From contig JAGBQJ010000049.1 in the NCBI GenBank assembly GCA_017632935.1, forward strand, positions 234,986 to 298,985: 64,000 nucleotides of DNA, in the 5' to 3' direction. The DNA is from Bacteroidales bacterium (GTDB taxonomy: Bacteria; Bacteroidota; Bacteroidia; Bacteroidales; F082). The position numbers and the translations under genes are program-made. This document shows, one piece after another, positions 35,718-64,000 of this stretch (within the stretch, counting starts at the first letter, position 1; each line of letters starts with the position of its first letter). The notes beneath the pieces were generated by a model, which did no database searches, was not told the DNA's origin, and saw only the letters and a list, made by a program, of their open reading frames with translations.

Positions 35718-35790
35718 TGACCCGGCTGGGGCTCGAACCCAGGACCCCAACATTAAAAGTGTTGTGCTCTACCTGCTGAGCTACCGAGTC
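35718..35790 (-). tRNA. tRNA-Lys (anticodon UUU)
   Basis: 73 nt on the minus strand. Acceptor stem GACTCGG/CCGGGTC, D arm GCTCAGCAGGTAGAGC, anticodon arm CAACA-CTTTTAA-TGTTG (anticodon TTT), T arm CTGGGTTCGAGCCCCAG. The 3' CCA is not encoded (ACAG follows). Confidence 0.97.
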
Positions 35791-38065: not shown

Positions 38066-38095
38066 TTGCCAATCCAAGAAAAGTCCGTACTTTTG
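38066..38095 (+). promoter_or_regulatory. Full promoter of SRP RNA (TTG-N19-TACTTTTG)
   Basis: TTG at 38066-38068, 19 bases, TACTTTTG at 38088-38095, with transcription predicted at about 38100, exactly where the RNA's terminal stem begins. Confidence 0.7.
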
Positions 38096-38099
38096 CATC

Positions 38100-38196
38100 G
38101 GGTAAGTCTTATACGACCAGCTCCCTCTGAAATCCCCCAGGACAGGAATGTAGCAAGGGTAGGAGGTTGTAGCGGTGCGATATGAGTAGCTTACCC
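38100..38196 (+). ncRNA. ffs: Small signal recognition particle RNA (4.5S)
   Basis: 97 nt. The ends pair (GGGTAAG/CTTACCC), and the apical part CCCCCAGGACAGGAATG followed by TAGCAAGGGTAGGAGG has the conserved helix 8 layout: CAGG..., asymmetric loop, GGAA-type tetraloop region and AGCA, where Ffh binds. A T-rich tract (TTCTTTATTT) follows as terminator. It works with Ffh and FtsY in cotranslational membrane targeting. Confidence 0.88.
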
Positions 38197-38214
38197 TTCT
38201 TTATTTAATCACTC

Positions 38215-48758: not shown

Positions 48759-48789
48759 TTTGTTCGTTCATGGTTTTTTGCTATTTTTG
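48759..48789 (+). promoter_or_regulatory. Full promoter (TTTG-N19-TATTTTTG) of the long-leader gene
   Basis: TTTG at 48759-48762 and TATTTTTG at 48782-48789 with ideal 19-base spacing. The start of transcription should be near 48796, leaving a ~285-nt leader before the ATG at 49082. Confidence 0.65.
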
Positions 48790-48795
48790 TGGCAT

Positions 48796-49081
48796 AAACA
48801 AACGGAAGTAGAACTATCAAAATAGTACATAATAGTAGAGTAAACGATATTAAACAGTTATAATCAAAGCATTTAGACAAATCACTTCTCTTCGAAAATT
48901 GACGTTTACGGGAGAACACGTAATAGAATTTGAACAAATGCTCACGTTATGGCGTGAGCTGAATCATTTTCTGTACGTGTGGGTTACGCCAATACCTCGA
49001 AGAGCGGGAAACGGTTAGGTTCACGCTTTTTTTGTCTGGTGCTGGAAGAAACAGAAACTTTAATCCTTAAATCTTATCAAT
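48796..49081 (+). promoter_or_regulatory. Long structured leader with mutually exclusive helices, U-run and 26-codon upstream ORF
   Basis: This fills the only gene-free stretch over 300 bases (48653-49081). The first ~100 nt are AT-rich. The 3' part can fold three ways that share one segment: GCTCACG/CGTGAGC (48940-48946 with 48953-48959); GGCGTGA/TTACGCC (48951-48957 with 48984-48990, one G-U); and GCGTGAGCT/GGTTCACGC (48952-48960 with 49018-49026), which ends directly before seven T (49027-49033), like a terminator. A short ORF (ATG 48938, TAG 49016-49018, 26 codons) covers exactly this segment. A riboswitch-like or leader-peptide control is inferred; no known class is recognised. 48653-48758 holds nothing I can name. 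Confidence 0.45.
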
Positions 49082-49735
49082 ATGAAAAAAGTAATAATGG
49101 CAGTAGCAGCCTTAATGCTAATGACGGTGGCTCTCGTTGCCACAGGATTCAAAAAAAATGATGTATCAATCAGCGGTGTCACAGGAAGGAAACCATCCTC
49201 CTTTGTTGACCTTGGTCTACCGAGTGGCACTTTGTGGGCTAAATGGAATGTGGGTGCCAGTTATCCAGAAGATTTGGGCGACTCGTTTACCTGGGGCGAG
49301 ACTAAAAAGCCAAAAAGCGGTAAAGATGTCGAATATACAAGGCTCGGACAGACATTGGAAGAAAGAGATGATGCTGCAACAGCCAATTGGGGTAAGAATT
49401 GGCGTACCCCTACGTATGAAGAATGGGCAGAATTGAAAAGGTATTGCTCCACTAATTGGACGGCACAGGGCTGTCATGTTGTAGGACCAAACGGCAATAG
49501 TATCTTTCTACCAGGCGATATATTTTACTGGTCAGCTACGTTCATTCCTGCTTGGGCAAAAGGGATACCATGTCCATCTGCTTATTTCGTTCGAGTACTA
49601 TGTAATCACAAATTAATTGATTTAGGTGATAAGACTACTAGTTGTACAAGTAATAAATGTGCAGTTAGGCCAGTACTTAAGTACACGAAGGATGAATATA
49701 TGATGATGTCAATAGAAAAACAATTAGGCAATTAG
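49082..49735 (+). CDS. Secreted C-type-lectin-fold-like (FISUMP/DUF1566-like) protein
   Basis: 217 residues. Signal peptide or membrane anchor (MKKVIMAVAALMLMTVALVA). The segment VDLGLPSGTLWAKWNVGAS is the hallmark start of a large Bacteroidales group that also has DSFTWGET, WGKNWRTPTYEEWAELKRYC and YWSATF before a C-terminal VRPV strand (CAVRPVLKY). The fold is of the formylglycine-generating-enzyme/C-type-lectin type. No catalytic residues are known; such proteins are secreted or phage-like binding proteins, and some members are diversity-generating retroelement targets. Gene composition is AT-rich compared with neighbours. It is preceded by the structured leader and followed by a strong terminator. 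Confidence 0.78.
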   Translation: MKKVIMAVAALMLMTVALVATGFKKNDVSISGVTGRKPSSFVDLGLPSGTLWAKWNVGASYPEDLGDSFTWGETKKPKSGKDVEYTRLGQTLEERDDAATANWGKNWRTPTYEEWAELKRYCSTNWTAQGCHVVGPNGNSIFLPGDIFYWSATFIPAWAKGIPCPSAYFVRVLCNHKLIDLGDKTTSCTSNKCAVRPVLKYTKDEYMMMSIEKQLGN

Positions 49736-55935: not shown

Positions 55936-56021
55936 CGGAGAGAAAGGGATTCGAACCCTTGGAACGCAAAGCGTTCAACGGTTTTCGAGACCGCCCCGAT
56001 CGACCACTCCGGCATCTCTCC
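55936..56021 (-). tRNA. tRNA-Ser (anticodon CGA)
   Basis: 86 nt, minus strand, with a long variable arm (TTGAACGCTTTGCGTTCCAA). Acceptor GGAGAGA/TCTCTCC, anticodon loop CTCGAAA, T arm GGGTTCGAATCCC. CCA is not encoded. Confidence 0.96.
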
Positions 56022-56075: not shown

Positions 56076-56160
56076 CGGAGACAGAGGGATTCGAACCCCC
56101 GAAGCCTTTCGGCTTAACGGTTTTCAAGACCGCCGCTATCGACCACTCAGCCATATCTCC
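56076..56160 (-). tRNA. tRNA-Ser (anticodon UGA)
   Basis: 85 nt, minus strand, long variable arm (TAAGCCGAAAGGCTTCG). Acceptor GGAGATA/TGTCTCC, anticodon loop CTTGAAA, T arm GGGTTCGAATCCC. First gene of a two-tRNA unit with the CGA isoacceptor 54 bases downstream. Confidence 0.96.

Positions 56161-63905: not shown

Positions 63906-64000
<95 letters not shown>

Follow-up and report, generated by a model that had tools for sequence, protein, structure and literature searches.

A leader RNA with two competing folds in a Bacteroidales bacterium, probably one copy of an unrecognised family of attenuator-like elements

What a 286-nt leader may be doing before the gene of a 217-aa protein is the question raised by this locus. 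In the window (the whole stretch of DNA analysed, 64,000 nucleotides; the features of the locus given below lie on its + strand), a promoter can be read in the sequence at 48759-48789, as TTTG (48759-48762), a 19-nt spacer and TATTTTTG (48782-48789). This is as the original prediction had it, and transcription would start near 48796. The first gene follows at 49082-49735; its product, labelled lectin-like in the original prediction, has a signal-peptide-like start, no Pfam match at E<=1e-3, and a DLGLPSGTLWA stretch that recurs in several other first genes behind copies of the family described here. Between promoter and gene, the segment GGCGTGAGCT (48951-48960) had been predicted to pair in three mutually exclusive ways, with GCTCACG (48940-48946), with TTACGCC (48984-48990) or with GGTTCACGC (49018-49026), and the logic of an attenuator had been proposed. 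The comparative evidence presented here shows, at the level of sequence, that two competing folds exist. We believe, with a probability of roughly 80%, that the leader is a cis-acting transcription-attenuating RNA belonging to an unrecognised family that is widespread in its host's class. Judged from its pairings, the reach of the attenuator logic is a family and not one gene.

Anatomy of the leader

The family copy in the window spans 48868-49033. From 5' to 3', the family presents a promoter box, a segment carrying the 5' strand of helix P0, then P1, an AAA loop, P2, a U-rich loop, P3, P4 and P5; on the returning 3' side come GG, P2, an RCCU loop and P1, followed by the terminator strand and a U-run. 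P1, P2, P3 and the competing upstream P0 had no place in the original prediction. In the window, the 5' strand of P0 lies within the upstream segment 48868-48890, and its partner in the family is the 5' strand of P3/P4 (swap test, see below, 0/2000); P0 is weak in this copy (-6.9 kcal/mol). P1 is formed by CTCTTCG (48888-48894) and CGAAGAG (48998-49004), as indicated by covariation and folding, and P2 by ATTGACG (48898-48904) and CGCCAAT (48987-48993), with one A-C mismatch. The internal loop L1 between them has AAA on its 5' side (48895-48897) and ACCT on its 3' side (48994-48997), where the T and the first A of the 5' side may form a pair. CACGTA (48917-48922) pairs with TACGTG (48974-48979) in P3, the P4 5' strand (48925-48933) has its partner within 48960-48972, and P5 joins GCTCACG (48940-48946) to 48953-48959. 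The strand 48952-48971 is shared, since it can serve either as the 3' side of the antiterminator helices P5 and P4 or as the 5' side of a terminator stem. The latter is completed by the terminator 3' strand (49006-49026), directly behind which stand seven T (49027-49033), so that this last feature occupies 49006-49033.

Among 60 non-redundant copies, L1 is nearly constant (AAA in 44 and GAA in 12 on the 5' side, ACCT in 37 and GCCT in 13 on the 3' side), while the helices are variable: their letters, those of P2 included, change fully between copies. The second loop (L2, U-rich/GG) is more varied than L1, and few unpaired letters are conserved. Of the 60 copies, 55 have four or more T in a row in the last 14 nt of the match and 38 have six or more; the remaining five have no run of four. 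The G+C-rich stem and U-run before the gene have the make-up of an intrinsic terminator. The copy L024:1365-1558 has lost P4 and P5 through a natural deletion and keeps both P2 strands as well as the U-run and the 3' strand of the terminator.

A family of leaders

BLAST of the host genome with the leader revealed three more strong copies, and among 149 genomes of the host's family copies were found in 20, all from one genus of 16. The aligned BLAST copies displayed conserved blocks, with a start codon at a similar distance. A first covariance model (R1, E<=1e-3) matched 75 of 99 genomes of the genus, and the further outer helix P1 was revealed by divergent copies. With a second model (R2) built from 64 copies, the host genome yielded 18 matches at E<=1e-3, one of which (L188) is partial and ends before the terminator. 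In the order, R2 matched at least 141 of 393 genomes and 87 of 206 genera, and in the phylum (E<=1e-4) at least 42 of 395 genomes and 20 of 171 genera; these counts are lower bounds, because at most seven candidates per genome were scored. Deeper scoring was applied to 12 genomes chosen for high counts or for their group. Ten copy-rich Bacteroidales genomes carried 10, 11, 14, 15, 16, 18, 20, 21, 21 and 24 copies, a genome of the host's genus (G093) having 15, and two genomes from another order of the same class carried three and four.

As to specificity, the best E-values in two non-Bacteroidota genomes were 0.21 and 4.8. The model matched 49 of 51 loci found by pattern; the pattern matches outside Bacteroidota, one in Vibrio (L058) and one in Oscillospiraceae (L080), had no model match and were set aside as chance. 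The named records among the pattern matches were mostly metagenome-assembled genomes of uncultured Bacteroidales, plus Paludibacteraceae, a Coprenecus and an Alistipes. No matches were obtained in viral contigs with two narrow patterns, nor in plasmids by blastn with the window copy alone, searches that divergent copies could escape.

Such copy numbers (up to 24 per genome, with several copies near contig ends in fragmented genomes) could also be those of a dispersed DNA element of the REP, MITE or attC recombination-site type that lies before genes by chance. The near-identical copies of L220, 1.1 kb apart before paralogous genes, would fit this as well. An element of that kind accounts poorly for the steady orientation and distance of the copies with respect to both promoter box and gene, for their competing covarying folds and T run, and for their wide sequence divergence, and we consider it very improbable. 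The original prediction had itself named a dispersed repeat unrelated to leaders as a possible undoing; the copies are indeed dispersed, yet as leaders (see below). The two L220 elements (1268-1417 and 2393-2542) each precede one of the two paralogues, and leader and gene were probably duplicated together.

Covariation of two mutually exclusive folds

RNAalifold, when applied to the first alignment, recovered only the base of the terminator, with no double change. We attribute this poor result to P3, which is too variable for sequence alignment, and we therefore relied on counts over named structures and on swap tests, an alignment-free procedure in which the helix arms of each copy are compared with arms exchanged between copies. 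Alignment A1 had 39 rows, with L033 (as L021) omitted. A2 had 32 rows, for which the copies were located by BLAST and a terminator-like motif; L045 was missed by the motif script, and L024, with its natural deletion, and six near-identical rows were left out. A5 had 64 rows, ten of the 74 listed copies being omitted, and the analyses on A7 omitted an opposite-strand match of L078. Copies at least 80% alike were excluded from the swap tests, which retained 32 of 91 copies, 28 of the copies from L175 onwards and 60 of 102.

On A2, 88.5% of the cells of the antiterminator were paired and 61 showed double changes, against 26.1 in shuffled alignments (0/500), the pair-types measure being weaker (43/500). 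The terminator had 16 double-change cells against 5.5 (3/500) and a covariation score reached by 13/500 shuffles; its paired cells (134/500), pairs with double changes (277/500) and pair types (454/500) did not exceed shuffles. The small GGG/ACC hairpin drawn in the A2 terminator fold was poorly paired (54%). When the partners were slid by 1-3 columns, pairing fell to 27-43% and 31-52% in the two folds. On these measures, the narrow set A2 gives good support to the antiterminator and modest support to the terminator. On A5, double changes were found in 24 of 29 antiterminator pairs (260 cells, 96.4 in shuffles) and in 12 of 16 terminator pairs (65 cells, 24.9 in shuffles), and all five measures stood at 0/500 shuffles for each fold.

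The swap tests on 32 non-redundant copies gave 0/2000 for each of P1, P2, P3/P4, P5, the terminator and P0, and the same held for 28 copies outside the model seeds. In the latter set, a copy's own partner was the best of all in 17 cases for P1, 22 for P2, 15 for P3/P4, 4 for P5, 15 for the terminator and 3 for P0; P5 and P0, both partly conserved in sequence, are thus the least specific. R2 selects its matches for P1-P5 pairing, and copies found with either model have been selected for that model's pairs. The evidence free of such selection comes from A2, from P1 among R1 matches, and from P0 and the terminator, whose pairs are in neither model.

Of the three pairings foreseen for 48951-48960, all are possible in the sequence, and the two outer ones, P5 with GCTCACG and the terminator, covary across the family. 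The middle one, with TTACGCC, did not hold, as own partners were no better than swapped ones (781/2000, 177/2000 and 1107/2000). The antiterminator and terminator share one strand and are mutually exclusive, and each covaries. Comparison with Bacteroidales genomes, as the original prediction had advised, thus disclosed compensatory changes in the competing stems; with covarying copies in many genomes, a lack of covariation and of conservation beyond this locus is excluded. The attenuator logic put forward for one leader is supported for a family that precedes many genes. Second-class loci, L132-L165 among them, have behind the terminator a segment (CTCGATAAGT-like in some) whose complementarity to the 3' strand of P3/P4 exceeds chance expectation (8/2000 permutations, 32 copies).

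Position and genes served

In 102 of 128 copies, a TAnnTTTG box stood 60-160 nt ahead of the element, a distance similar to that in the window; 200 mononucleotide shuffles gave a mean of 6.7 such copies and at most 15. The full TTTG-N17-21-TAnnTTTG was exact in only 34 of the 128. An ORF of at least 55 aa starting with ATG lay within 400 nt in 127 of 130 copies (median distance, 62 nt), and 2 of 130 elements fell within an ORF of 100 aa or more. Where there was enough flank (89 copies), a sense ORF of at least 100 aa started within 150 nt downstream in 76, against 9 with an ORF reading away from the 5' end. Most copies have a promoter box and an end resembling a terminator, as would a multi-copy gene for a trans-acting small RNA of about 240 nt, the downstream gene being then incidental, and multi-copy small RNAs are known in Bacteroides (FopS, PMC11697453). 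Against this stands the tight sense coupling to a gene; nor would a plain small RNA need a terminator whose covarying pairings compete with those of the remaining RNA. We regard this explanation as unlikely.

The 107 non-redundant first genes matched 75 Pfam families at E<=1e-3. Among the matches listed (25 of the 75 families), the commonest was HTH_26 (5 of 107), followed by Fib_succ_major, TonB plug, CarbopepD_reg_2, VWA and Lcl_C (3 each), LytTR and two DNA-methylase families (2 each), and PorV, C10 and S8 peptidases, GmrSD_N, YhcG_C and DUF1016_N (1 each). The PADLOC models matched by first genes include type II, IIG and III methyltransferases (among 25 of 157 families listed). By a crude signal-peptide rule, 67 of the 107 first genes were positive; for ORFs of the window the figure was 19 of 47 (Fisher p 0.014). 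Early-found relatives (loci below L131) gave 37 of 46, and the second class 5 of 25. The next long ORF looks SusC-like by eye in L236, L238, L242 and L243, which come from four genomes of a single genus outside the order. Four host copies (L178, L183, L187 and L188) precede small HTH proteins that look alike by eye. First genes of the HTH_26 type could belong to a control circuit.

Two host copies each head a run of three genes (L010:4182-7392 and L011:3728-6897), whose products are a secreted or lipoprotein-like protein with an SGSM stretch, a small protein of membrane-like character and one that resembles tubulin/FtsZ. The first is VWA-like by eye, with no Pfam VWA match; the Pfam Tubulin matches (E 3.6e-6 and 3.2e-3) both fall short of the curated cut-off, and PADLOC gave weak matches only. 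The DUF805b RNA (RF02914) was found from about 40 nt to 2.6 kb behind the element in L132, L158 and L169. Other RNAs in the window are three tRNAs, a small SRP RNA of the Bacteroidales type and a 5S rRNA truncated where the window ends (35718-35790, 38093-38200, 55936-56021, 56076-56160 and 63910-64000).

The first genes displayed no shared metabolic theme or amino-acid pathway, and this bears on attenuation by a leader peptide. The predicted short ORF is there (48938-49018, 26 codons plus stop) and spans the switch in the window, and 65 of 91 copies have an ATG for a leader ORF. Its part in the switch was not supported: across copies the ORF runs from 3 to more than 50 codons and shares neither stop nor frame. 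A leader-peptide attenuator driven by the 26-codon ORF was accordingly rejected and receives almost no credence from us.

Predicted folding and a possible mechanism

The whole 286-nt leader folded better than 198 of 200 shuffles (z -2.6), and the shorter segment 48930-49035 gave z -1.5, with 14 of 200 shuffles as good. When the leader is folded up to 49012, P1-P5 are predicted; in the predicted fold of the whole leader, P3-P5 are retained and P1/P2 are lost. In that full fold, the upstream segment also paired with the 40 nt behind the element, a candidate helix that the family did not support (320/2000). Predicted energies in the window were -41.1 kcal/mol for the long hairpin and -24.5 for the terminator hairpin, the means over 60 copies being -52.4 and -27.9. 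The long hairpin was predicted to be stabler in all 60 copies, and the terminator was absent from the predicted fold of every full-length element among them. Since prediction favours the antiterminator in 60 of 60, termination would need a kinetic or a factor-driven route.

The same uniform preference is what would be expected of a constitutive stabiliser, that is, a long hairpin which always forms and protects the 5' end of the mRNA, with terminator pairing as a by-product. We assign this a low probability, in view of a terminator stem that itself covaries, of the T run behind that stem in 55 of 60 copies, and of P0, which covaries against P3/P4.

We thus return to a cis-acting attenuator. 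In one fold, the nascent RNA would form the long hairpin (P1, L1, P2, L2, P3, P4 and P5) and sequester the strand 48952-48971, allowing read-through into the gene; in the other, this strand would pair with 49006-49026 to give an intrinsic terminator. Since P0 pairs with the 5' strand of P3/P4, it works against the long hairpin, and P0 plus terminator would lead to a stop of transcription near 49033. A signal acting at L1 and L2, or at P0, may set the choice. Mean duplex energies over 60 copies were -16.8 (P3/P4), -14.1 (P5), -10.5 (P0) and -24.1 kcal/mol (terminator), so that P3-P5 (about -31) and P0 plus terminator (about -35) are near balance when loop costs are ignored; with the same reservation, P1/P2 might be kept, as a loop-loop contact, whichever of the two states is adopted.

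Our leading guess for the sensor at the internal loops is a protein or a small molecule. Because surface, regulatory and defence-type genes are all served, a physiological cue or elongation factor of a general kind seems likelier than a pathway metabolite. More tentatively, the family may be a class-wide RNA sensor through which a large accessory regulon responds to one common cellular signal, sensed at the small conserved internal loops, the switch being an exchange of P3-P5 for P0 plus terminator while P1/P2 persist as an intramolecular loop-loop contact. Were this possibility correct, the regulon would take in surface and secretion-linked proteins, small HTH regulators and restriction-modification systems, and the family would possibly be among the most abundant cis-regulatory RNAs of Bacteroidota. 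Few leader RNA switches are known for accessory genes of this phylum. With 10-24 copies in some Bacteroidales genomes, the family would be, for bacteria of gut and rumen, a main control layer over surface and defence-type genes. The copies are many, short and portable, so the trigger can be looked for with standard reporter and transcription assays, and the leaders might be put to use as a natural gene-control tool in these bacteria.

Comparison with known systems

The comparison with Rfam advised in the original prediction gave no match: no Rfam 15 family was found for the element, at the gathering threshold or at a permissive E-value, in the window and 30 further loci, and the permissive search of the window returned sub-threshold, chance-level matches only. 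In the literature, none of the titles and abstract beginnings covered names such a family, a scope that also takes in parts of PMC2864571, PMC8040213, PMC9723704, PMC7366714 and PMC11697453; a term search of PMC11109978 met no Bacteroidota words. The leader-RNA family is thus apparently undescribed.

The Flavo-1, Bacteroidales-1 and Bacteroides-1 RNAs of Rfam are likewise structured RNAs of this phylum, but the element has no match to them in Rfam 15. A palindromic candidate of Bacteroidota, HMP2_4205 (132 bp), is called terminator-like in the part of PMC8040213 covered, and the corresponding part of PMC9723704 describes 64 structured 5' regions in Flavobacterium psychrophilum, leaders partly without Rfam matches. 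Either could be a partial earlier sighting of the family, both being known here by description. The FopS RNAs of Bacteroides, as described in part of PMC11697453, are multi-copy paralogous small RNAs of about 65-70 nt that act in trans (nine of intergenic origin, four antisense and one from a 3' UTR). Like the present family they are multi-copy and linked to SusC-like genes, but they are shorter and trans-acting.

The LoaP, ops-RfaH and UpxY antitermination elements recruit an elongation factor, and they too are leaders before surface and accessory operons. A recruitment site for UpxY, a NusG paralog, with a role like that of ops or LoaP elements, would suit the surface and accessory gene content, which resembles such regulons, and UpxY is widespread in the order, with 229 of 393 genomes above the cut-off. 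Its occurrence does not track the copy-rich genomes: by plain counts, of the 20 with the top count (seven matches each), strong UpxY matches (E below 1e-38) were present in 11, and the other 9 had only weak matches at the level of NusG (E 1e-15 to 1e-19). The family is therefore not confined to genomes with UpxY, which we rejected as the trans factor. We hold recruitment of UpxY to be quite improbable. Unlike those antitermination elements, the family has a built-in competing terminator.

The attenuator that we favour can finally be set beside riboswitches with intrinsic-terminator platforms, as an orphan class. It resembles them in its leader position, in helices arranged round a short conserved loop and in the strand exchange between antiterminator and terminator, and it differs from them in helix letters that vary widely, in having few conserved unpaired letters and in first genes that share no pathway.
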